A stretch of 64,000 bases of DNA, from NCBI GenBank assembly GCA_003220225.1, contig QHRU01000039.1:1-64000 (forward strand), read 5' to 3'. The translations under genes were made by a program, and so were the position numbers. The stretch is from Candidatus Rokuibacteriota bacterium (GTDB lineage: Bacteria > Methylomirabilota > Methylomirabilia > Rokubacteriales > CSP1-6). The notes under the pieces were generated by a model, which was given only the letters and a program-made list of their open reading frames with translations, did no database searches and was not told where the DNA came from. Below are positions 1-51,300 of the stretch, one piece after another (position 1 is the stretch's first letter; the number at the start of each line of letters is the position of its first letter).

Positions 1-474
1 CACGGCCGCTACGCGGCGATGGCGGTCGCGCCGCTCACCTCCGGCCGCCTGAACCCCCCGGACATCTGCCTGATCTACGGCACGCCGGGCCAGATGATCT
101 TCTTCATCAACGGGCTCCAGTGGAGCGGCTACCGGAAGATGTCGTTCACGTCGGTGGGCGAGTCGGCGTGCGCCGATTCGTGGGGCAAGGCGCTCAAGAC
201 CGGCGAGCCCGCGCTCACGATCCCGTGCTACGCCGAGCGCCGCTACGGCGGTGTCGCCGACGACGAGTTGCTGATGGCGATCCCGCCGCGCTTCTTGCCC
301 AAGGTGATCGAGGGCCTCGCCGCTCTCGACCGGAACGGCCTGCGCTATCCGGTCCCGCCCTACGGCATCCAATCGGACGCCGGCGCGGGCCTCGCCGTTT
401 CCTACGCGGATAAGGACGGGCGAGCTGCAGGACGTCGCGGGGCTGGGGCCCCGCCGTCCGAGGCGAGCGGATGA
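1..474 (+). CDS. DUF169 family protein, 3' part (5' end outside window)
   Basis: The reading frame is open from base 1, so the gene begins before the window and only about 157 C-terminal residues are seen. The stretch with SACADSWGKAL, TIPCYAERRYGG and DDELLMAIP looks like the conserved core of the DUF169 family (COG2043), whose biochemical role is not established. The last 25 or so residues (after AVSYADK) are low-complexity Gly/Ala/Arg and do not look like family sequence. They run into the remnant of a PIN toxin on the other strand, so the natural 3' end may have been altered by a deletion. Function beyond the family name cannot be given. Confidence 0.7.
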   Translation, partial: HGRYAAMAVAPLTSGRLNPPDICLIYGTPGQMIFFINGLQWSGYRKMSFTSVGESACADSWGKALKTGEPALTIPCYAERRYGGVADDELLMAIPPRFLPKVIEGLAALDRNGLRYPVPPYGIQSDAGAGLAVSYADKDGRAAGRRGAGAPPSEASG

Positions 475-37353: not shown

Positions 37354-37647
37354 ATGAAACAGGCTAGGATCGCCGAGCTGAAGAATAACCTCTCCCGGTA
37401 CGTCGCCCGCGTGCGCGCCGGCGAAACCATCACCGTGCTCGACCGGAACAAGCCTGTTGCCCGCCTCGTCCCGATCGCGAAGGCAGATCGGAAAGCGGCC
37501 ATGGACGCGCGGCTCATCGAGCTCGAGCGGAAGGGATGGCTGCGACGCGGCACGGGCGGCTTGCCGAAGTTTATGCGGAAGCGTCCCATTCGGCTCAAGG
37601 GCAGCGTGCTCAAGGACCTGCTCGACGAGCGCGAGAGTGGGTGGTGA
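37354..37647 (+). CDS. Phd/YefM-family antitoxin
   Basis: 97 residues. The N-terminal half MKQARIAELKNNLSRYVARVRAGETITVLDR (in blocks) with KPVARLVPI is the standard Phd/YefM DNA-binding fold. The C-terminal half is basic and would wrap the toxin. It should repress its own operon and neutralise the PIN toxin that follows with a GTGA overlap. A good promoter lies directly upstream in the gap after tsaE. Confidence 0.88.
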   Translation: MKQARIAELKNNLSRYVARVRAGETITVLDRNKPVARLVPIAKADRKAAMDARLIELERKGWLRRGTGGLPKFMRKRPIRLKGSVLKDLLDERESGW

Positions 37648-38069
37648 GGTTCTGGGACAGCTCGGCGATCGTGCCCCTCGTGCTCGTCGAGCCGGCCACG
37701 ACCCGCGTGCGGGCCTGGCTTCGCGAGGATGCGACGGTGGCGATCTGGACGTGCACGCGAGTGGAAGTATTGTCGGCACTTGCCCGGCGGCGCCGGGCCG
37801 AGCCGAGGATGCGGCGGCAGATCGCAGCGGCGCGCCGTGAATTCCTCGAGGCTTGGCCGCGTTGGTCCGAGGTCACGATGATCGACGCGGTGAAGCGTCT
37901 CGCGGAGCGGCTCGTCGAGACACACCCGCTTCGAGCGGCCGACGCACTGCAGATCGGTGCCGCGCTCGTCGCCGCGGAGAGCGAACCCGAGACCCTCGAG
38001 TTCGTGACACTCGACAGTCGACAAGCCGAGGCTGCCGAGCGCGAGGGGTTCCGGGTCATGCATATCTGA
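37644..38069 (+). CDS. PIN-domain toxin (VapC family)
   Basis: 141 residues. Starts VRFWDSSAIVPLVL with the first acidic residue (Asp5), then WTCTRVEVLSALARR with Glu, RAADALQIGAALVAA with Asp and FVTLDSRQAEAAEREGF with Asp, the four-acid PIN ribonuclease pattern. GTG at 37644 overlaps the antitoxin stop. It probably cleaves tRNA or other structured RNA when freed. Unlike the remnant at 560-611, this pair looks intact. Confidence 0.88.
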   Translation: MRFWDSSAIVPLVLVEPATTRVRAWLREDATVAIWTCTRVEVLSALARRRRAEPRMRRQIAAARREFLEAWPRWSEVTMIDAVKRLAERLVETHPLRAADALQIGAALVAAESEPETLEFVTLDSRQAEAAEREGFRVMHI

Positions 38070-40883: not shown

Positions 40884-41651
40884 ATGAGCCGGATCGCGGT
40901 GGTCGCGCTGGTCCTGGTCACCGCGGCGTGCGCCCACGCGCCCGTGCGGCCGGCGGCGCGGCCGGCCGCGGCGAGCGTGCCCGCCTTCAGCTTCGCCGAC
41001 GACACGTTCGCCTTCGCCAACGACATCCGCGCTCGCCATCCGGACGGTCACGACCTCTACGCCAACTACTGCTTCGTGCTCGCACGCGCGGTGCGCCAGT
41101 TCCATCGGTTCGCGCGCTTCGACCCGGCGGCGCCGCGCGTGGACGCCGAGGAGTACGCGCGCCGCGTGCGCGCGGTGTCTGGCCACGCGCCATGGGAGCC
41201 GTGGCTGCCGCCCGCCGAGCGCGTCGTCATCCCGGGCTTCGCCAGTCTTCGCGCGTTCTCCGCGGCGGAGGAAGCCGCCGTGAAGACGGGACTCGGCTCG
41301 CGCTTCTGGACGCTCGTGCACTGGACGAACTGGCGCGTGAGCATGCCGGTGCCCGACGGCCACCAGGCGGCGGTGCTCGACGAGGTGCTCGCCGAGCTGG
41401 CGGCGGGACGCCTCGTGCAGCTGCTCGTCACCAACTGGCCGAAGCAGGAGCTGAGCCACACGGTCGTGGCCTACGGCTACCGTGGCGTCGACGACGGCGT
41501 CGAGCTGACCGTGTGGGATCCGAACGATCCGGCCGCGCCCGGCGCCGTGCTATTCGACCGGCGCCGCGAGCGCTTCGTCGCGAGCCGCGTCTACGACACG
41601 CGCGTCGGGCCCATCCGCGTCTTCCGGATGTACTACTCGTGGCTGCTGTGA
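40884..41651 (+). CDS. lipoprotein with possible papain-like (C39-type) fold
   Basis: 255 residues. Lipobox signal (IAVVALVLVTAAC) marks an envelope lipoprotein. The body has a Cys at the start of a helix (YANYCFVLARAV), a His beginning a strand (ELSHTVVAYGY) and an Asp after it (LTVWDPNDP), in the order and setting seen in papain-like C39 or transglutaminase-like folds. Family not identified, so catalysis is only a suggestion. It has its own promoter and is GTGA-coupled to the acyltransferase, making it the first gene of the ketosynthase cluster. Confidence 0.65.
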   Translation: MSRIAVVALVLVTAACAHAPVRPAARPAAASVPAFSFADDTFAFANDIRARHPDGHDLYANYCFVLARAVRQFHRFARFDPAAPRVDAEEYARRVRAVSGHAPWEPWLPPAERVVIPGFASLRAFSAAEEAAVKTGLGSRFWTLVHWTNWRVSMPVPDGHQAAVLDEVLAELAAGRLVQLLVTNWPKQELSHTVVAYGYRGVDDGVELTVWDPNDPAAPGAVLFDRRRERFVASRVYDTRVGPIRVFRMYYSWLL

Positions 41652-42565
41652 GCGAGGCGGGGACGGCGGTGACCGGGACCGTCGCCGTCGCGCCGCGCTG
41701 GTACGCGCACCGTTTCAACCGCGCGGGCGTCTATCGCGTCGCGACGGCCGTGGCGTCCGCGCTGCCGCGGCCGGTGCGCCTGCGCGTGGCGGCGGCCCTG
41801 GCCGGCGTCGCCGGACGGCGCTTCCCGGCCGAGCGCGCCGTCGTCCGCCGCAACCTCGCGCGCATCCTGCCGGGCGCGCCGGCGCGCGAGCTCGACGCGC
41901 TCGTCGCCGCCGTCTTCCGTCACTTCGCCATCTGCTTCGCCGATCTGATCACGGCCAATCGCCGGGCCGACATCGGGGCGCTCGTGGCGGGCATCGAGGG
42001 CATGGGCGGGCTCGAGAAGGCCGCGCGCGCCGGCCGCGGCCTCGTCGTGCTCACCGCGCACCTCGGCAACTGGGAGCTGGCCGGTCGGATGCTGGCGCGC
42101 GACGGCGCCCGCCCGATGCACATCGTCGTCGCCGCCGAGGCGGACCCCGCCGTCGAGCGTTTCCTGCGCGGCGGCGCGGCACCGGTGCGGTTCGTCACGC
42201 GCACGGCGCCCACCGCGTCGCTCTCGCTGCTGAGCGCGCTGCGTCGTGGGGAGATCGTCGCGATGCAGGGTGATCGCGCGCTCGGCACGCGGGGCGACGT
42301 GCTCCAGCCGTTCTTCGGCGCTCCCGCGCCGTTCCCGCTGGGGCCGTTCGTGCTGGCGCGGGCGGCCGGTGCGCCGGTGGTCCCCGCGTTCTGCCTGCTC
42401 GACGCCGACCGCCGCTACCGCATCGTCGTCGGCATGCCGTCGTTGGTGGAGCCGGGCGGCGAGGCCGCCGCGCTCGGCCGCTGGGTCGCCGTGCTGGAGG
42501 TGATGGTGAGGCGCCATCCTTCGCAGTGGTTCAACTTCTACGACCGCTGGAGCCCGCCCGCGTGA
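41648..42565 (+). CDS. LpxL/HtrB-like lysophospholipid/lipid A acyltransferase
   Basis: 305 residues. HTAHLGNWE-type motif LTAHLGNWELAGRML gives the HX4D/E catalytic pair (His-x4-Glu), MQGDRALG matches the second conserved block, and FPLGPFVLARAAGAPVVPAF the third. It would move an acyl chain from acyl-ACP (or CoA) to a membrane acceptor. Standing beside ketosynthases and an ACP, it probably unloads the cluster's product onto a lipid, as acyltransferases do in aryl polyene clusters. GTG start overlaps the lipoprotein gene; stop overlaps the KS. Confidence 0.85.
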   Translation: MSEAGTAVTGTVAVAPRWYAHRFNRAGVYRVATAVASALPRPVRLRVAAALAGVAGRRFPAERAVVRRNLARILPGAPARELDALVAAVFRHFAICFADLITANRRADIGALVAGIEGMGGLEKAARAGRGLVVLTAHLGNWELAGRMLARDGARPMHIVVAAEADPAVERFLRGGAAPVRFVTRTAPTASLSLLSALRRGEIVAMQGDRALGTRGDVLQPFFGAPAPFPLGPFVLARAAGAPVVPAFCLLDADRRYRIVVGMPSLVEPGGEAAALGRWVAVLEVMVRRHPSQWFNFYDRWSPPA

Positions 42566-43737
42566 GCACCTTCGGCAGAACGAGCGCCGTCGCCGTCGTG
42601 GCCGCCGGCGTCGCGACGCCCCTCGGCCTCGATCTCGACTCGTTCTGGTCGGCGCTGTGCACGGGCGTCGACGGGATCTCCGCCATCGAGCGCTTCCGCG
42701 TCGACGACCTGCGCGTGGGGCGCGGCGGCGAGATCAAGAAGCTGCGCGCGCTCCGGCACGGGCGCCTGCCGCGCTGCCGCGCGTCCGCGCTGCTGCTGCT
42801 CGCCGCCGACGACCTGCTCACCCGTGCCGCGCTGGCCGCGGACCCCGCGCGCGTGGCCGTCGTCGTCGGCACCGCGCTCGGGGGCGTCGAGGAGGGCGAG
42901 CGCGCGCTCGGCGAGCGCGGCGCGCGGGCGGCGGCGGCCGGGCTCTACGACAGCCCCGCTCACGCGCTGGCCGAGCGGCTGGCCGCGCGCGGCCCGGTGC
43001 TGACCGTGTCGACCGCGTGCGCTTCGGGCGCCACGGCCATGGGGGTGGGCGCCGATCTGCTCGCCGCGCGCGCCGCCGACCTCGTCGTCGCCGGCGGCTA
43101 CGACGTGCTCTGCCGCTTCGTCATGCGGGGCTTCGACGCGCTGCGCTCGCTCACGCGCGAGCGCGTGCGGCCGTTCGACCGGCGGCGCAGCGGGCTCCTG
43201 CTGGGCGAGGGCGCCGCGCTCGTGCTCATGGCGCGCGACGCCGACGCGCCGCGCGTCCGGCTCGGCCGCCTGCTGGGTCACGCCAGCAGCAGCGACGGCT
43301 CGCACGTCGCCGCGCCGGATCCCCAGGGCCGCGGGCTCGAGCACGCCGTGCGCGGCGCGCTGGCCGCGGCCGGCGTGGGCGGTGACGCCGTGGACTTCGT
43401 GAGCGCTCACGGCACAGGGACTCCACTGAACGACAGAATCGAAACCGCCGTGCTGCGGCGCGCGCTCGGGGCGCGCGCGGGCGCCGTGCCCGTCAATTCG
43501 ATCAAGGGCGCGCTCGGCCACACGATGGGCGCCGCCGCGACGCTGGAGGCGATCATGTGCCTGCTCGCCTCGCGCGACGGCGTGGTGCCGGGCACGGCGG
43601 GCTACGAGGAGCCGGATCCCGCGTGCGAGCTCGACGTGCGCGGCGCCACGCGCGCCGCGCGGCCGCGCGTGAGCCTGAGCACCTCCCTCGGCTTCGGCGG
43701 CTGCAACGCCGCGCTCGTGCTGGAGGGCGCGCCGTGA
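42562..43737 (+). CDS. beta-ketoacyl-ACP synthase (KS II/FabF-like), first
   Basis: 391 residues, thiolase fold. The catalytic triad is complete: Cys about 153 in STACASGA, His in SAHGTGTPLND and His in KGALGHTMGAA, with SLGFGGCNAALV at the end. It performs decarboxylative chain extension with malonyl-ACP. It shares its spacing with the second complete KS at 44787 but the two differ clearly in sequence, so they probably have different roles. GTG at 42562 overlaps the acyltransferase stop, and it is GTGA-linked to a degenerate KS-like gene. Confidence 0.9.
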   Translation: MSTFGRTSAVAVVAAGVATPLGLDLDSFWSALCTGVDGISAIERFRVDDLRVGRGGEIKKLRALRHGRLPRCRASALLLLAADDLLTRAALAADPARVAVVVGTALGGVEEGERALGERGARAAAAGLYDSPAHALAERLAARGPVLTVSTACASGATAMGVGADLLAARAADLVVAGGYDVLCRFVMRGFDALRSLTRERVRPFDRRRSGLLLGEGAALVLMARDADAPRVRLGRLLGHASSSDGSHVAAPDPQGRGLEHAVRGALAAAGVGGDAVDFVSAHGTGTPLNDRIETAVLRRALGARAGAVPVNSIKGALGHTMGAAATLEAIMCLLASRDGVVPGTAGYEEPDPACELDVRGATRAARPRVSLSTSLGFGGCNAALVLEGAP

Positions 43738-44507
43738 CGCGGGTCCTCGGCGTCGGTCTCCTCACCGGCTGGGGCGCCGGCGTCGCCGCGCTGCCCGAGG
43801 ACGCGCGCCGCGCGGCGGGCGACCGACGCGTGGTGCCGCTGGTCACGCCGCCCCTCGCGGGCGAGCGCTTTCGCCGCGCGACGCGCGAGTGCCTGCTGGG
43901 CGTGGCCGCGGTGGAGGCGGCGCTGCGCGAGAGCGGCCTGTCCCGCGCGGCGGTGGCGGGGCCGCGGACGGCCCTGGTGTACGTGACGGCCGCGGCGTAC
44001 GCGGCGAGCAACAAGGGATTCATCGAGGGGGCGGGCACCACGCTGCATTTCCCGTACACGGCGCCCAGTGCCGTGCCGGCCGAAGTCGCGATCGAGTACG
44101 GCTTGACGGGCGGGTATGTCATTCTTGTGGGCGGGGCGGCGGCGGCCGTGGATGCCCTGTGGCAGGCCGGGACGCTGCTCGCGGCCGGCCGCGCGGACAC
44201 GGCGCTCGTGCTCGCGGTGGAGACGTTCGACGAGTGCGCGGATCTCTGGGCGCGCGGACGCTGGGCGGCGCCGCGGCCGCTGGTGGAAGCGGCGGCGTGC
44301 GCCGTGCTCGTCGGGAGCGGCGACGATTCCGGCTACGGGCCGGGCGCCGCCTCGACGCTCGAGGCGCTCGTCGCGCGGCGGGCGGGTGAGACGCTGGCGT
44401 GCGCGCCCCTCGTGGGCCTGGCGCTCGCGCGCGCGGCCGGGGCGCCGCACGCGCGCGTCACCGGGCGCTGGCGCGGCCGTCGCGCACAGATCGCGGTCGC
44501 GACATAG
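43734..44507 (+). CDS. truncated KS-like protein lacking catalytic residues
   Basis: 257 residues, about two thirds of a KS. It matches the N-terminal half of the thiolase fold (RTALVYVTAAAYAASNKGFI, FPYTAPSAVPAEVAIEYGL, AGRADTALVLAVETFDECADL). Where a KS has TACASGA it has YVILVGGAAA, so the nucleophile is lost, and the HGTGT and GHT regions are missing. It may pair with the preceding KS as a chain-length-factor-like partner or scaffold. The frame is clean and coupled on both sides, so it is not a simple pseudogene. Confidence 0.75.
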   Translation: MTRVLGVGLLTGWGAGVAALPEDARRAAGDRRVVPLVTPPLAGERFRRATRECLLGVAAVEAALRESGLSRAAVAGPRTALVYVTAAAYAASNKGFIEGAGTTLHFPYTAPSAVPAEVAIEYGLTGGYVILVGGAAAAVDALWQAGTLLAAGRADTALVLAVETFDECADLWARGRWAAPRPLVEAAACAVLVGSGDDSGYGPGAASTLEALVARRAGETLACAPLVGLALARAAGAPHARVTGRWRGRRAQIAVAT

Positions 44508-44514
44508 GAGGCTC

Positions 44515-44790
44515 ATGGAACCCAAGGAAGTCCTCGACGAGCTGAAGGCGATCCTGGTCTCGCGTCTGAAGTTCGACCCGCGCCGCGCGGCTGAGACGAC
44601 CGAGGCCACCCCGCTGCCGAAGGGCGTCGACGGATCCATCGGCCTCGACTCGCTCGACTTCATCGAGCTGTCGATCGCGATCGAAGAGCGCTTCGGCATC
44701 GCGATGGACGAGAACCAGGACCTGACCGAGCACTTCGCCTCCTTCGACACCCTCTCGCGGTTCATCGCCGGGAAGCTCCGCTCCGCATGA
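44515..44790 (+). CDS. acyl carrier protein
   Basis: 91 residues, acidic. The phosphopantetheine site is Ser46 in GLDSLDFIEL, followed by IAIEERFGIAMDE. TAGGAGG lies 4 bases before the ATG, one of the clearest ribosome sites in the cluster. It would carry the growing chain for the two ketosynthases beside it, after activation by AcpS. The insert ENQDLTEHFASFDTLSRFI is longer and more aromatic than in FabD-type ACPs, as in specialised type II systems. Confidence 0.92.
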   Translation: MEPKEVLDELKAILVSRLKFDPRRAAETTEATPLPKGVDGSIGLDSLDFIELSIAIEERFGIAMDENQDLTEHFASFDTLSRFIAGKLRSA

Positions 44791-45974
44791 AGCGGATCGT
44801 CATCACCGGCCTCGGCGCCGCCAGTCCGTACGGCGCCGGCGTCGCCGCCTACTGGAAGGGGCTCGCCGGCGGCGCCTGCGCGATCCGCGAGCTCACTCTC
44901 ATCGGGACCGATGGCTTCCGCTGCCGGCTCGCGGCCGCGGTGCCGGAGCCGCTCGCCGGCTCGGCGCGCCGCACGCGCGCCGACCGCCTCGCCATCGGCG
45001 CCGCCGGCGAGGCGCTCGCCGACGCCGGGCTCGGCGCGCGCGACCGCGCCGCGGCCGCGCTCGTCGTCGGCGCCGTCGGCGGGGGGATGCTCGAGGCCGA
45101 GGCGTGGTACTGGCGCCACGCGCGCGACGGCACGCGGCCCGCGTCGCTCTCCGCGGTGCGCGCGATGCTGCCGTCGGCGCACGCGGAGACGCTGGCGAGC
45201 CGCTTCCGGCTCGGCGGTCCGCGCCACACGGTGGTGACCGCGTGCAGCTCGGGCGCCGTCGCGCTGGCAGAGGCGGCGGAGCTGATCGCCGACGGCGTCG
45301 TCGAGGTGGCGGTGGCGGGCGGCGTGGACGCGATCACGCGCATCTGCTTCATGGGCTTCAACGCGCTGAAGCTCCTCGACCCGGCGCCCTGCCGGCCCTT
45401 CGATCGCGAGCGGCGCGGGATGTCGATCGGCGAGGGGGCCGGCTTCATGGTGCTCGAGTCCGAGGCGCGGGCCCGCGCGCGCGGCGCGCGCGTGTACGCG
45501 ACGCTCGCGGGCCACGGCATGACGACCGATGCCTTCCACGTGACGGCGCCGGAGCCCGAGGGCGACGGAATGGTGCGCGCGATGTCGGCGGCCCTCGCGC
45601 GGGCGGGCGCGGCGCCGCGCGAGGTGCAGTACGCCAACGCCCACGGCACCGGCACGCCGCAGAACGACCGCATCGAGGCGCGCGCGCTGGCGCGCGTGTT
45701 CGGCGAGGGCGGCCTGCTCGTGTCCTCGAGCAAGTCGATGATCGGCCACACGATGGCCGCCGCCGGCAGCCTCGAGGCCATCGCGACCGTGCTCGCGCTC
45801 GAGCACGGCCTGGTGCCGCCGACCGCGAACCTGGCCACGCCGGATCCGGACGTTCCCTTCGACTGCGTGCCGCGCGCGGCGCGCGCGGCGGGCCTCACGT
45901 GCGCGATCTCCAACTCGTTCGGCTTCGGCGGCCAGAACGTGACGCTGCTCTTCCGGCGAGGCGGCGCCCGATGA
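44787..45974 (+). CDS. beta-ketoacyl-ACP synthase (KS II/FabF-like), second
   Basis: 395 residues. Complete triad: Cys about 153 in VTACSSGAVAL, His in NAHGTGTPQND and His in KSMIGHTMAAAG; C-terminal SNSFGFGGQNVTLLF. The block CRPFDRERRGMSIGEGAGF is typical. ATGA overlap with the ACP gene upstream and ATGA overlap with the degenerate KS downstream repeat the order KS then KS-like seen at 42562-44507. It is likely the main elongating enzyme of the cluster. Confidence 0.92.
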   Translation: MKRIVITGLGAASPYGAGVAAYWKGLAGGACAIRELTLIGTDGFRCRLAAAVPEPLAGSARRTRADRLAIGAAGEALADAGLGARDRAAAALVVGAVGGGMLEAEAWYWRHARDGTRPASLSAVRAMLPSAHAETLASRFRLGGPRHTVVTACSSGAVALAEAAELIADGVVEVAVAGGVDAITRICFMGFNALKLLDPAPCRPFDRERRGMSIGEGAGFMVLESEARARARGARVYATLAGHGMTTDAFHVTAPEPEGDGMVRAMSAALARAGAAPREVQYANAHGTGTPQNDRIEARALARVFGEGGLLVSSSKSMIGHTMAAAGSLEAIATVLALEHGLVPPTANLATPDPDVPFDCVPRAARAAGLTCAISNSFGFGGQNVTLLFRRGGAR

Positions 45975-47038
45975 CGCGGCCGGGCGTGGCCATCACTGGT
46001 GTCGGCGTGGTGAGCGCCGCCGTCACCGGCGACTCCGCGGCTCTCGGCGCGTTCCTGGCGGCGCCGGCCGCGCCCGCGGGCGAGGCGCTGGGCGCAGGGG
46101 CGCTGGCGGCCCTGGTCGATCCGGGCGAGGCGCGTCGGCTCTCGCGCGTCTGCCAGTTCACGATCGCGGCGGCGCGGCTCGCGCTGCGCGAGTCCGGCGT
46201 CGATCCCGCCGCCGGCCTGGGCCTCGTCGTCGGCACCGAGCTCGGCGACCTGGCCTCCACGCACGCGTTCGCCGACGGTTTCCTCGAGCGCGGTCCGGGC
46301 GGCCTGTCCGCGCTGCTGTTCCCGAACACGGTGATGAACACGATGGTCGCGACCACGGCCATCGCGGTGGGCGCGCGCGAGATGGCGCTGACCCTGAACG
46401 CGCCCACGGTCGCGGGCGAGCTGGCGGTCGCGCGCGCGGCCGCCGCGCTGGCGAGCGGACGCGTGCCCGCCATGCTGGCGGGCGGCGTGGACGAGCTGGA
46501 TCCGGTCGTCGAGCGCGAGCTGGCGCGCCTGGGCTTCGGCGCCGAGCGCCGCGGCGAGGGCGCCGCCTTCGTCGTCCTCGAGCCGCGCGCGGCGGCCGAC
46601 GCGCGCGGCGCGACGGTGCTGGGCGAGGTGAGCGCGGCGGCGTGGCGCGCGCTGCCGGCGCGGCCATGGGGCGTGGGGCGAACGCGACGCTCGCCCGCGA
46701 TCGCGGCCGCGCTCGAGGCGGCGGCCGCGCGCCCCGGCGATGTCGGCTGGGTGTACGCGTCCGGCAGCTGCGACAGCGCGCGCGATCGATGGGAAGAGGC
46801 GCTGCTCGGCGCCGCCCTCGGCGCCGAGACACCCGTGTCGACGCTCGGCCGGCTGCTCGGCCGTCATGCCGGGCTCGGCGTGCTGCGCGTGGCGGCGGCC
46901 GCGTGGACGGCGCGGTCTGGGCTGCTGCCGGCGACGGACGGGACGACGCGCGTGGAGCGCGTCCGGCCGGGCCGCGGCCTCGTGCACGGGCTCGCGCGCG
47001 GCGGCACCCACGTCGCGCTGGTGGTCGGCGCCGCGTGA
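45971..47038 (+). CDS. chain-length-factor-like degenerate ketosynthase
   Basis: 355 residues, full thiolase-fold length. RPGVAITGVGVVSAAVTG at the start and AMLAGGVDELD in the core mark it as KS-like, but TACASGA is replaced by LTLNAPTVAGEL, and the first catalytic His region reads YASGSCDSARD. A His remains in LGRHAGLGVLRV. Loss of the nucleophile next to an intact KS is the pattern of type II PKS chain-length factors, which form heterodimers with the KS. That role is inferred. Confidence 0.8.
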   Translation: MTRPGVAITGVGVVSAAVTGDSAALGAFLAAPAAPAGEALGAGALAALVDPGEARRLSRVCQFTIAAARLALRESGVDPAAGLGLVVGTELGDLASTHAFADGFLERGPGGLSALLFPNTVMNTMVATTAIAVGAREMALTLNAPTVAGELAVARAAAALASGRVPAMLAGGVDELDPVVERELARLGFGAERRGEGAAFVVLEPRAAADARGATVLGEVSAAAWRALPARPWGVGRTRRSPAIAAALEAAAARPGDVGWVYASGSCDSARDRWEEALLGAALGAETPVSTLGRLLGRHAGLGVLRVAAAAWTARSGLLPATDGTTRVERVRPGRGLVHGLARGGTHVALVVGAA

Positions 47039-48090
47039 TCCCCTTCGTCGTCGTTCCCGCTCACGACGAGGCCACGACCGTCGGCGACGTCGTCCGCCGG
47101 GCGCGCATCCACGCGCCGGTGATCGTCGTGGACGACGGCTCGACCGACGGCACCGCGGAGGCGGCCGTCGCCGCCGGCGCCGACGTGCGCCGGCACGCGC
47201 GCCGGCTCGGCAAGGCGCAGGCCCTCCGCACCGGCGTCGTCGCCGCGCGCGCGCGCGGCGCCACGCACGTCGTTACGCTCGACGCCGACGGCCAGCACGA
47301 CCCGGACGACGTGTCCACGCTGCTGGCGGCCACCGCACCGCGCACGCTCGTGGTGGGCGCGCGGCGGACCGGCGACGGCGCGCTGCCCGCCGGCCGTGCC
47401 GAGGCCATCGTGGTGGCCGGCTTCTTCGTGAACTGGGCGAGCGGGCTGCGGCTCGCCGACACGCAGTCGGGCTTTCGCGTCTATCCCGTGGCGATCTTCG
47501 ACGAGGTGCCCGCGCGCCGCGGCGGCTTCGTGTTCGAGACCGAGGTGCTGCTGGCGGCCGCCGCGCGCGGCTGGCTCGTGCGCGAGGTGCCGGTGCGCTC
47601 GCTGCCTCGCGTCGCCGCGCGCAGCCGGTTCCGTCCCGTGGCCGACGGCCTCGCGATCGGCGCCTACCTGGCCGGCCGCTCGCTCGCCCGCGGCGCGGCC
47701 GAGGCGGGCGCCGCCGTGGGCACCGTGTTCGAGACCTTCACCGACGGCGATCGCCGTCGCGAGCGGCTCGCCGCGATGCTCGACGGCGCCGCCCCCTACG
47801 TCGGCACCATCGCGTGGGGCGCGATGGTCGGGGCGGAGGCGGCGCGCCGCGCCGGCGCGCGGCTGGCGTGGTGGTGGCGGCATCCGCGGCCGCGCCGCGC
47901 GCTCGTGGCGGCGGCCGGCGCGCTGGGCCTGCCCGGCGTCGTCCCGCTGCTCGTGCTGGCGGCGATCTCGGGCCGGCGCGTGCCCGGCGCGCGCGCGCTG
48001 GTGGCGGCGCTCTACGCGCAGGAGCGGCTCGACGCGCGGGTCGGCGCGCCGGTGCCCGTCAGCGTGAAGCCGCTGCGCAGGAGCGCCTGA
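47035..48090 (+). CDS. GT2-family glycosyltransferase
   Basis: 351 residues. The GT-A domain shows VPAHDEATTVGDVVRR, VIVVDDGSTDGTAE, TLDADGQHDP and DTQSGFRVYP, close to polyprenol-phosphate mannose/glucosyl synthases. The C-terminal third has two hydrophobic stretches (PYVGTIAWGAMVGAEAA and LGLPGVVPLLVLAAI). It may glycosylate the cluster's product or a carrier lipid; glycosyltransferases also occur in aryl polyene clusters. GTG start overlaps the CLF-like gene and the stop overlaps the oxidoreductase ATG. Confidence 0.85.
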   Translation: MIPFVVVPAHDEATTVGDVVRRARIHAPVIVVDDGSTDGTAEAAVAAGADVRRHARRLGKAQALRTGVVAARARGATHVVTLDADGQHDPDDVSTLLAATAPRTLVVGARRTGDGALPAGRAEAIVVAGFFVNWASGLRLADTQSGFRVYPVAIFDEVPARRGGFVFETEVLLAAAARGWLVREVPVRSLPRVAARSRFRPVADGLAIGAYLAGRSLARGAAEAGAAVGTVFETFTDGDRRRERLAAMLDGAAPYVGTIAWGAMVGAEAARRAGARLAWWWRHPRPRRALVAAAGALGLPGVVPLLVLAAISGRRVPGARALVAALYAQERLDARVGAPVPVSVKPLRRSA

Positions 48091-49358
48091 TGGAGACCTT
48101 CGACGTCGTCGTGGTGGGCGGCGGGCCCGGCGGCTCGAGCACGGCAACCTTCCTGGCCGACGGGGGACTGCGCGTGGCGCTCTTCGAGCGCGAGCGATTC
48201 CCGCGCTTCCACGTCGGCGAGTCGCTGATGCCCGCCACGATGCTCCTGCTGGAGGAGCTCGGCGCGAAGGCGGCGATCGAGGAGCGCGGCTTCCAGGTCA
48301 AGTACGGCGCGAGCTTCATCGACGAGGAGAACGACGACGCGACGCAGACCTTCTATTTCCTGCCGGGCCAGCCGTGGCCGAACTATTCCTACCAGGTCCC
48401 CCGCGCCGACTTCGACGCCGTGCTGCTCGACCATGCGAAGAAGCGCGGCGTCACCGTGTACCAACCGGCCACCGTGGAGGGCACCGAGTTCGACGCCGGC
48501 GGCGTGACCGTGACCGCGAGCGCGGAGGACCGTCCGGTTCGGGCGCGAGCGGCGATGCTGGTGGACGCCACGGGGCGCGACGCGCTGATGGCGAGCCGTT
48601 ACGGCCGGCGCCGGCGCATCCCCAACCTCGGCAAGGTCGCGCTCTTCGCGCACTTCAAGGGCGCGGCCCGCCGGTCGGGCCTCGAGGAAGGCAACATCCG
48701 CGTCTACGTCTTCCGCGACGGCTGGTTCTGGTGGATCCCGCTCGCCGGCGACGTCACCAGCGTGGGCGCCATCTGCCACGCGCGCACGGCGAAGGAGTGG
48801 ACCGGCGACCCCGACGGTCTGCTCGACGCGATGATCGCGCGCTGCCGGGGCGTGTCCGAGAACCTCGCGGGTGCTGCTCGCGTCACGCCGGTGTACCGCG
48901 TGGCCAACTTCTCCTACGACAACTCGCCGGTGGTGGGCGACCGCTTCGTCGCCGTCGGCGACGCCATCGCGTTCGTGGACCCGATCTTCTCGGGCGGTGT
49001 CTACATCGCGCTGCGCTCGGGGCAGCTCGCGTCCGTCGCGATCCGCGACGCCTTCCGCGCCGGCGACTTCTCGGCGCGGCGCTTCGCGGACTACGAGCGC
49101 CGCGTGCGCGCGGGCCTCGACCCGCTCTTCAAGTTCATCCACAAGTATTACGAGCCCTCGTTCTTCGATCTCTTGATGCGCCCACGCAACCACTTCGGGA
49201 TCTACGAGGCCGTCCTCAACGTGCTCTCCGGGGGCAACTGGGTGACGATGCCGTGGCGCGTGCGCGCCGCGCTCCGGATCCTCTACGGCATCGCGCGGAT
49301 CAACGCCTGGGTGCGCCGCCGCGCGGGGCTGCCGGTCGAATCCCGGCTCGAGTGGTAG
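48090..49358 (+). CDS. FAD-dependent oxidoreductase of the flavin halogenase family
   Basis: 422 residues. FAD Rossmann motif VVGGGPGGSSTATFLA, then FHVGESLMPA, a Lys in FQVKYGASF, the halogenase-type WxWxIP motif as WFWWIP (about 212-217) and the FAD-binding FVDPIFSGGVYIAL. Flavin halogenases chlorinate or brominate aromatic or polyketide substrates; family members without halogenase activity (dehydrogenases) also exist. Being within a KS/ACP operon, it probably acts on an ACP-bound or finished chain. It is TGATG-coupled to the GT2 gene. Its stop is part of a repeat also found at 61 kb. Confidence 0.8.
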   Translation: METFDVVVVGGGPGGSSTATFLADGGLRVALFERERFPRFHVGESLMPATMLLLEELGAKAAIEERGFQVKYGASFIDEENDDATQTFYFLPGQPWPNYSYQVPRADFDAVLLDHAKKRGVTVYQPATVEGTEFDAGGVTVTASAEDRPVRARAAMLVDATGRDALMASRYGRRRRIPNLGKVALFAHFKGAARRSGLEEGNIRVYVFRDGWFWWIPLAGDVTSVGAICHARTAKEWTGDPDGLLDAMIARCRGVSENLAGAARVTPVYRVANFSYDNSPVVGDRFVAVGDAIAFVDPIFSGGVYIALRSGQLASVAIRDAFRAGDFSARRFADYERRVRAGLDPLFKFIHKYYEPSFFDLLMRPRNHFGIYEAVLNVLSGGNWVTMPWRVRAALRILYGIARINAWVRRRAGLPVESRLEW

Positions 49359-49394: not shown

Positions 49395-50594
49395 ATGCTG
49401 ACAAGCCTGCGACGCGCACTCCGTGGTTACCTGTTCACCATCGCCGGCATCGCCATCGGGGTGGCGGGCATCGTGGCCCTCGGGGCCATGGCCGAGCGCA
49501 TCGTGCGCTTCATCGACGGCGGCGACCGCTTCGTGCTCGGCCAGATCTCGGTGGCGGGACGCGGCATGGGCATGGGCGCGGGCTTCACCGCCGGTGGCCT
49601 GCTGCCCGCGGCCGCCATCGAGGCGATCCGCAAGGTCGAGGGCGTCGCCGGCGTGCAGCCGCAAGTGATGCTCCCGCTGAACCCGAGCACCTCGCAGTTC
49701 ATGACGCTCACCCAGGAGCTGGTCATCGGCATGGATCTCTCCGTGCCGTCGCCGAACCGCCACTACCGCACGCTGCCGGTGCAGGCCGGACGATTCCTGC
49801 GCGAGGGCGACCGCCGCAAGGCCGTCGTCGGCGCGTCGTTCGCGGTCTCGCGGCGCCTGGCCCCCGGCTCGCGGCTCGAGCTGGAGGGCACGGCGTACGA
49901 GGTCGTCGGCGTGCTCGAGCGCATGCTGACCGCGCCCGACCGCTTCGTCGTCGTCGCGATCCAGGACGCGCGCGAGCAGTGGGTGGCCAAGGACCGCCTG
50001 CTGCGCACCGTGCTGGCCTCGGGCGGCGTCGCGCTGCGCGCGCAGGACCTCAACACCGGCGCCGCCGTCGGCTGGCGCGACGGCGCGGATCCCGACGTCG
50101 TCGCGCGGCGTATCCGTGACCAGGTCGCCGGCGTGAACGTCCAGATCCCGAGCGAGCTGTCCTCGCTGCTGCGCCAGTCCACGGCGTTCTTCTCGGCATT
50201 GCTCGTCGGCATCGGCCTGCTGGCCTTCGTGATCGGCGGCCTCTCGCTCGCCAACACGGTGGCCGCCGCCGTGTTCGAGCGCATCCGCGATTTCGGCGTC
50301 AAGCGAGCGCTCGGCGCCACCGACTGGCAGCTCGGGCGCGAGATTCTGGCGGAGGCGCTCGCGGTGACGCTGTCCGGCGGCGCGCTCGGCGTGCTCCTCG
50401 CGATGGTGCTCGGGCTCGCCATCGACGGCTGGGCGCGTCGCAGCGGCCAGCAGCTCTTCCTCTTCTCACCGCGCCTGCTCGGCGGCGCACTCGTGTTCTC
50501 GGTGCTCCTGGGCGCCGCGGCCGCGGCCTACGCGGCGCTGCGCATCGTACGCCTGTCGCCCGCCGAGGCGATCCGGAGGGGCAGTGCTGCCTGA
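49395..50594 (+). CDS. MacB/FtsX-like ABC transporter permease
   Basis: 399 residues. An N-terminal membrane helix (YLFTIAGIAIGVAGIVALGAM), a large periplasmic MacB_PCD-like domain (about 40-250) and three C-terminal helices of the FtsX domain (LVGIGLLAFVIGGLSLANTV, ALGVLLAMVLGLAI, LLGGALVFSVLLGAAAAAYA), with RIRDFGVKRALGATDWQL between. It would export or extract a lipid, peptide or small molecule together with the overlapping ATPase. Close behind the KS cluster, it may handle the cluster product. Confidence 0.88.
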   Translation: MLTSLRRALRGYLFTIAGIAIGVAGIVALGAMAERIVRFIDGGDRFVLGQISVAGRGMGMGAGFTAGGLLPAAAIEAIRKVEGVAGVQPQVMLPLNPSTSQFMTLTQELVIGMDLSVPSPNRHYRTLPVQAGRFLREGDRRKAVVGASFAVSRRLAPGSRLELEGTAYEVVGVLERMLTAPDRFVVVAIQDAREQWVAKDRLLRTVLASGGVALRAQDLNTGAAVGWRDGADPDVVARRIRDQVAGVNVQIPSELSSLLRQSTAFFSALLVGIGLLAFVIGGLSLANTVAAAVFERIRDFGVKRALGATDWQLGREILAEALAVTLSGGALGVLLAMVLGLAIDGWARRSGQQLFLFSPRLLGGALVFSVLLGAAAAAYAALRIVRLSPAEAIRRGSAA

Positions 50595-51300
50595 GCCCGT
50601 CCTTCGCGCACGCGGCCTCGTCAAGCGCTTCGCGGCGCCCGCCGGTCCACCGATCGAGGTGCTGGCCGGCGCCGAGCTCACGGTCAGGCGCGGCGAGCTG
50701 GTCGTGATCGAGGGGCCGTCGGGCTCGGGCAAGAGCACGCTGCTCAATGTCCTCGGCCTGCTCGAGGACGCCGATGCCGGCGAGATCCGGTTCGGCGAGC
50801 GCACGGTGAGCACGCTCGGCCGCTCCGCCAAGAGTCGCGAGCGCGGGCGCTGGCTGGGCTTCGTCTTCCAGTCGTTCCTGCTGCTGCCCGGGCTCACCGC
50901 CCTCGACAACGTGCTGCTGGCCGCGCGCTACACGAGCGGCGTCGACGCCGAGCTGCGCCGCCGCGCGATGGCTCTGCTCGAGCGCTTCGGCATGGCCGAG
51001 CGTCGCGACCACCATCCGGCCCAGCTCTCCGGCGGCGAGCAGCAGCGCGTCGCGTTCTGCCGCGCCGTGCTCAACGACCCGCCCCTCTTGCTCGCTGACG
51101 AGCCAACCGGCAATCTCGATGACGCGAACGGCGCGGTGATCCTGGAATCGCTGCGCGACCGGGCGCGCTCCGGCGGCGCCGTCATCGTGGTCAGTCATCG
51201 CCCGGACGCCGCCCGGGACGCCGACGCCGTGTTCACGCTGGCGGCCGGGAAGCTGCACCCGGCGGCGACCCGCCGACCGTCGGGGGCCGGAACCCTGTGA
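50584..51300 (+). CDS. MacB/LolD-like ABC transporter ATP-binding protein
   Basis: 238 residues. Walker [14 protein letters not shown]-loop [18 protein letters not shown], signature [15 protein letters not shown], Walker [13 protein letters not shown] and switch VVSHRPD. The layout is that of MacB/LolD ATPases. GTG at 50584 overlaps the permease by 11 bases. The last residues ([12 protein letters not shown]) are encoded by the first copy of a 48-bp repeat, so the C-terminus may have been extended by it. Confidence 0.92.

Follow-up and report, generated by a model that had tools for sequence, protein, structure and literature searches.

Half-size chain-length factors (CLFs) are already represented in the literature by ApeC of the aryl polyene synthases (PMC8358021, PMC12664062). 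ApeC is half the size of its ketosynthase (KS), consists of a single thiolase domain and a few C-terminal strands (PMC8358021), and acts through a complex with ApeO (PMC8253772). The actinorhodin CLF has 383 residues and an aryl polyene CLF 211 (PMC12664062). A conserved pair of arginines in ApeC has been proposed in print to contact the acyl carrier protein (ACP). The reference structures of ApeC used here are 6QSP chain B and 7F28, the latter identified by sequence match, and its family is PF13723. AmcG (NF058659) of the cispentacin system is insoluble alone, becomes soluble and heterodimeric with the KS AmcF, and has been named a cyclization factor. According to the same source, AmcF-AmcG elongates and cyclises the chain on its ACP, and reduction is borrowed from fatty acid synthesis (PMC10698177). 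The initial annotation of the locus described below had stressed that known CLFs are usually full length, which implied novelty for a short one. ApeC and AmcG precede it in print, so this surprise rested on an incomplete picture of CLFs.

The locus is contained in a 64,000-nucleotide stretch of contig QHRU01000039.1 from a Candidatus Rokuibacteriota bacterium, referred to here as the window. The central protein is called SHORT, and the three KS-like proteins around it are called KS1, KS2 and CLF2 (Table 1). The genes are arranged in the order acyltransferase, KS1, SHORT, ACP, KS2, CLF2, family 2 glycosyltransferase (GT2), FAD-dependent oxidoreductase (FAD) and MacB-type ABC transporter. With the coordinates as used, four-base overlaps are found at the acyltransferase-KS1, KS1-SHORT, ACP-KS2, KS2-CLF2 and CLF2-GT2 junctions.

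Table 1. Positions of the genes and motifs of the SHORT locus, numbered from the first letter of the window.
Feature	Positions	Strand	Basis
LpxL-type lysophospholipid/lipid A acyltransferase; exact start not fixed	41669..42565	+	PF03279
KS1, intact ketosynthase of 391 aa; catalytic Cys, His and His conserved throughout 14 aligned rows	42562..43737	+	both Pfam KS domains
SHORT, half-size Cys-less KS-like protein, 257 aa, proposed CLF-type partner of KS1	43734..44507	+	frame, Pfam, alignment, AlphaFold2
GTGA overlap of KS1 stop and SHORT start	43734..43737	+	NTGA in 31/34 measurable related loci
RFRR, codons 45-48 of SHORT	43866..43877	+	invariant in 16 aligned rows
Nucleophile-motif position of SHORT, codons 129-141 (VILVGGAAAAVDA)	44118..44156	+	Cys absent in 34/34 sequences with letters
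ACP, acyl carrier protein	44515..44790	+	PF00550; among NCBIfam models AmcB and PRK09184 score best, neither reaching its cut-off
KS2, intact FabF-like ketosynthase; catalytic Cys, His and His conserved throughout 14 aligned rows	44787..45974	+	both Pfam KS halves
CLF2, Cys-less KS-like protein, 355 aa, nearly complete KS fold, probable KS2 partner	45971..47038	+	Pfam, AlphaFold2
GT2, family 2 glycosyltransferase	47035..48090	+	Pfam
FAD-dependent oxidoreductase; exact start not fixed	48093..49358	+	PF04820/PF01494
MacB/FtsX-type ABC permease and ATPase	49395..51300	+	domain scan

The clean frame and the overlap with KS1, both pointed out in the initial annotation, stand. The SHORT frame is open from a GTG start to a TAG stop, and its first four bases, GTGA, are common to the KS1 stop (TGA, ending at 43737) and the SHORT start. 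The overlap recurs as NTGA in 31 of the 34 loci in which the end of KS1 could be located (35 loci in total), an arrangement that suggests translational coupling of the two genes. In two loci KS1 and SHORT are in frame with each other: L052/L023, with a read-through linker of about 7 residues, and L062, where a run of N lies inside KS1.

The only Pfam domain of SHORT above cut-off is the N-terminal ketoacyl-synthase domain (PF00109, 30.4 bits, residues 47-164), in keeping with the N-terminal thiolase fold assigned to it earlier; a match to ACP_syn_III stays below cut-off, at 19.1 of 24 bits. Ketoacyl-synt_C (PF02801) was not found in SHORT by Pfam, so that it shows one of the two Pfam halves of a full-length CLF. 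At the nucleophile site KS1 reads TVSTACASGA and SHORT ILVGGAAAAV, so that GGAAA does replace TACASGA, as had been claimed. This alignment was made by eye, and its register is that of the HMMER alignment of SHORT with the actinorhodin KS. Of 36 rows (35 loci and the window), 34 have letters at positions 129-145, and Cys is absent from this segment in all of them. Neither the HGTGT nor the GHT(M) motif was found in the window's SHORT. SHORT therefore cannot be counted as an active beta-ketoacyl synthase, because its Cys-His-His catalytic residues are missing.

An alignment of 16 rows was assembled from the window's SHORT and 15 orthologues with identities of 48-88%. The members are 257-321 amino acids long, and 44 columns are invariant. 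Given these numbers, the sequences indicate that the reduced protein is more than a chance observation. The RFRR of SHORT lies where the helix begins that carries the conserved Arg pair in ApeC, and the two positions are equivalent. ApeC works with a separate KS, as is proposed for SHORT. The RR pair is, however, also present in ordinary KSs (e.g. 1j3n_A).

An AlphaFold2 monomer model of SHORT, computed from the 16-row alignment, has a pLDDT of 88.7 and a pTM of 0.89. Only residues 103-109 are below 50. They lie beside a loop, after about residue 100, whose length varies between members: in the relatives L030, L031 and L035 it has 17, 34 and 35 letters, compared to 2 in the window, and it is contained within alignment columns 117-168. 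Foldseek and VIA identify the model as a KS/CLF fold. The best VIA match is 6smp_I, the smaller AntDE subunit (Z 23.2, rmsd 3.2, 251 aligned residues), which we take to be the CLF AntE. It is followed by 6kxd_B, the smaller subunit of the ishigamide KS/CLF and presumably the CLF Iga12 (Z 22.9, rmsd 3.1, 250 aligned residues). Ordinary KSs are tied with the CLFs within 1 Z unit. ApeC (6qsp_B) is absent from the 34 PDB-sequence profile matches and from the best 50 VIA matches listed, which excludes nothing.

In the model, residues 1-257 cover nearly full KS/CLF chains, for example 4..370 of 6smp_I and 3..404 of 3lrf. Because of this span, strands 239-246 and 249-256 of SHORT correspond to the end of a KS. 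The protein is predicted to comprise the N-terminal KS half together with the last strands, so that it would have retained the C-terminal hairpin but not the interior of the C-terminal half. The previous statement that SHORT ends before the HGTGT and GHT regions thus holds for the motifs, but not for the final strands, which are retained in the model. Like ApeC, modelled SHORT has approximately half the size of a KS, with one thiolase domain and a few C-terminal strands. Its retained part appears to have the same fold as the full-length CLFs (6KXD, AntDE 6SMP and actinorhodin 1TQY chain B; Z 22.3-23.2), and as in their case the gene of the Cys-less protein accompanies those of a KS and an ACP. 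The solved chains of these CLFs, however, have 348-402 residues compared to 257 in SHORT. A nucleophile-less KS fold, as modelled, and a gene paired with that of a KS are the marks of a CLF, and SHORT carries both. The corresponding model of CLF2 (pLDDT 84.6, pTM 0.88) aligns to the whole chain of the KS 1e5m, with a Z of 45.1 and an rmsd of 2.6 over 352 residues.

SHORT is present in 18 of 40 genomes searched, the window's own included. Among 95 genomes of the phylum, 45 gave a strong match (E <= 2.0e-47); at E <= 0.001 the tally is 51, weak matches included. By taxon, SHORT is found in 43 of 57 genomes of the window's family, in 2 of 3 others in the order and in none of the 35 from the remainder of the class. 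KS1 orthologues, which score 504 bits or more whereas the next match has 350, are also present in 45 of the 95 genomes, and these are the same 45 that have SHORT. A looser KS1 tally (E <= 1e-80) gives 80 genomes and includes other ketosynthases. In the 95-genome searches a limited number of preliminary candidates per genome was scored and several genomes are incomplete, which makes absence weaker than presence. Since the KS1 and SHORT genes are adjacent, their co-occurrence is not independent of linkage. A scan of the genomes of 84,980 species with two peptide patterns, which may miss distant relatives outside the Rokubacteria, gave 35 SHORT loci, all titled Rokubacteria, Rokuibacteriota or Methylomirabilota; many of them are the same contigs as in the phylum set. 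The plasmid collection contained no match to SHORT, and a literature search did not find a description of the operon.

The neighbourhood of SHORT is conserved. KS1 lies directly 5' of SHORT in 16 of 17 relatives, and in the 17th (L024) the contig starts within SHORT. The ACP gene is directly 3' of it in all 17. KS2 is present in 17 of these relatives, CLF2 in 15, FAD in 13 and GT2 in 12; the counts are 11 for each MacB gene and 10 for the acyltransferase. Contig ends account for some of the absences (e.g. L024-L026); in L028 and L037 GT2 is missing between CLF2 and FAD, and these cases are not contig ends. After KS2 in L033 (genome G011), positions 1-1233 contain, by eye, transposase- and integrase-like sequence in place of CLF2, and a PF13723 match on another contig of the same genome (C96) may be the displaced CLF2. 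A 255-aa predicted lipoprotein with zero Pfam matches at E 0.1 is encoded at 40884-41651 (+) of the window and has a homologue at 14 of the 17 related loci. Judged by eye, it contains Cys, His and Asp motifs that resemble those of a papain-type (C39-like) protease or transferase.

We consider it quite probable that SHORT is a half-size CLF-type subunit of a type II polyketide or fatty-acid-like synthase and forms a heterodimer with KS1. A partner role for KS1 had been suggested in the initial annotation, and it now receives indirect support from the co-occurrence of the two genes (45 of 45), their overlap and the KS/CLF fold. In a KS, the dimer face lies in the N-terminal thiolase half, as does the segment lining the pocket of the partner. 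SHORT would have retained this half and lost the nucleophile, the interior of the C-terminal half and both catalytic histidines. Made together by way of the overlapping stop and start, KS1 and SHORT would most likely form an obligate heterodimer, in which the chemistry would be carried out by KS1. SHORT would form the opposite side of the acyl pocket, would probably contribute to the surface on which the ACP docks, and may set the length or shape of the chain built on the ACP of the operon. The operon would employ a second pair as well, KS2 and the near-full-size Cys-less CLF2. The acyltransferase, GT2 and the ABC exporter make it probable that the product is attached to a lipid and exported. 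SHORT would then add to the few half-size KS partners a sequence family that neither the ApeC nor the AmcG model recognises. This suggests that CLFs can tolerate losing their C-terminal half, and may have done so more than once, which restricts the set of features that a CLF requires for its function. In addition, the locus draws attention to a conserved, uncharacterised operon for a lipid or polyketide in the Rokubacteria, an uncultivated soil group.

Judged from its sequence and model, SHORT resembles ApeC in anatomy, gene pairing and selection, and lies outside both the ApeC and the AmcG models. Membership in the ApeC family was considered and is not supported by sequence: PF13723 matches 0 of 16 SHORT members, and hhalign against a 10-sequence ApeC alignment, in which RR is aligned to RR, is not significant (probability 1.1%, E 0.047). 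In the 95 genomes PF13723 gave 14 matches, none of them on SHORT. The surroundings differ as well. Among the 27 neighbouring proteins scanned with Pfam (35.3-61 kb), neither ketoreductase (KR) and dehydratase (DH) domains nor an aryl-starter loading domain were found, unlike in the clusters of ApeC, and the SHORT operon has two Cys-less partners, SHORT and CLF2. One relative, G007, possesses in addition a true ApeO-ApeC pair (L038, 230-2166; PF13723, 166 bits), which is separate from the SHORT operon and is followed by genes that look methyltransferase-like by eye.

The term 'ApeO-type' is used here for KSs encoded beside an ApeC-type CLF. The best NCBIfam model for KS1 is ApeO-like (PRK09185, NF006618), with 275.5 bits against a cut-off of 407; two ApeO-type KSs pass it with 470 and 513 bits. 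The same two ApeO-type KSs group with KS1 (support 93/80) in a tree built from 46 N-terminal halves. SHORT, ApeC and CLF2 each form one group, and together they stand apart from the KSs (99/96). SHORT and ApeC join weakly (81/45), and according to a warning of the tree program this may be an artefact of two long branches, those of ApeC and SHORT, coming together. Grouping of SHORT with CLF2 is not rejected (p-AU 0.388), nor is that of ApeC with CLF2 (0.366), and thus the half-size partners may have one origin or two. CLF2 is matched by the ApeC profile (E 4e-6), and five weak PF13723 matches in relatives fall on CLF2 (G004, G007 C63, G020, G024 and G026), so that CLF2 may link ApeC to the full-length CLFs. 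A bolder reading, which we regard as possible and rather doubtful, is that SHORT belongs to a line of half-size KS partners of its own, whose reduction was independent of that of ApeC and AmcG, and that two elongation units with unequal partners share one ACP in making an undescribed lipid-anchored, exported polyketide, either unreduced or reduced by the fatty acid synthase.

It is improbable that SHORT is a KS1 partner of the cyclization-factor type, which would fold or cyclise a short chain and not set its length. Like SHORT, AmcG is a reduced KS-like protein without catalytic motifs that is encoded beside an ACP, and it heterodimerises with a KS. On the AmcF model KS1 scores 229 and KS2 274 bits, and AmcB is the best model for the ACP, although none of these scores reaches the cut-off. 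KR and DH domains are missing from the 27 proteins scanned, and AmcF-AmcG borrows its reduction from fatty acid synthesis. However, the AmcG model NF058659, which has 157 positions compared to the 257 amino acids of SHORT, does not recognise the SHORT family: in the 95 genomes it gave 5 weak matches, 0 above cut-off and none at the SHORT position. Furthermore, the 27 proteins scanned contain neither an aminotransferase nor an adenylate-forming ligase domain.

Crossed pairs, in which SHORT would work with KS2 or CLF2 and KS1 would be a homodimer like ApeR, are unlikely. By hhalign, on small alignments that are weak evidence on descent, SHORT is nearest to CLF2 (E 3.8e-8, 95%), followed by KS2 (E 1.4e-4, 53%), and its match to KS1 is not significant (E 0.14). 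The case for KS1 as the partner is therefore based on gene order and co-occurrence. Profile nearness, however, reflects descent and not contact; in the window SHORT follows and overlaps KS1, not KS2, whereas it is CLF2 that follows and overlaps KS2.

The invariant, basic RFRR patch and the constant position of the ACP gene directly downstream of SHORT could also be expected of an accessory that does not dimerise, such as a scaffold for ACP docking. This is very unlikely, because the invariant columns of the 16 rows are spread over the entire N-terminal KS half and also occupy the segment that precedes the nucleophile site. We know of no scaffold with a KS fold.

The initial annotation argued that SHORT has a selected function, and proposed dN/dS across homologues as a check. 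The ratios are not neutral. Against its two nearest relatives the dN/dS of SHORT (NG86) is 0.188 (window-L030) and 0.256 (window-L031), with dS of approximately 0.4. The values for KS1 in the same comparisons are 0.114 and 0.141, and those for KS2 and CLF2, against L031 only, are 0.176 and 0.191, which places SHORT near CLF2 and above KS1. More distant pairs give 0.31 to 0.54 (dS 0.63-1.10), and are given little weight because NG86 is less reliable there in GC-rich genes. From match start to stop, SHORT is 248-293 amino acids long in 34 sequences, the broken L081 and the contig-edge L082 being left out. No full-length homologue of the SHORT family was found in the 40 genomes, the 95 genomes or the two-pattern scan. 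Although one distant orthologue is frame-broken (G024/L037, 3187-3802) and another has an in-frame loss of about 40 amino acids (G079/L100), it is hardly credible that SHORT derives from a full-length CLF by ongoing decay or by a one-off recent truncation, which the purifying selection, the similar lengths of the relatives, the confident and complete fold and the lack of a full-length homologue in these searches all contradict. In-frame TAG codons in the orthologues of G069 and G072 were considered as lesions and rejected, because both are terminal stops.

Elsewhere in the window, a Phd/YefM antitoxin and PIN-domain toxin pair is encoded at 37354-38069 (+), between TsaE and RadC.
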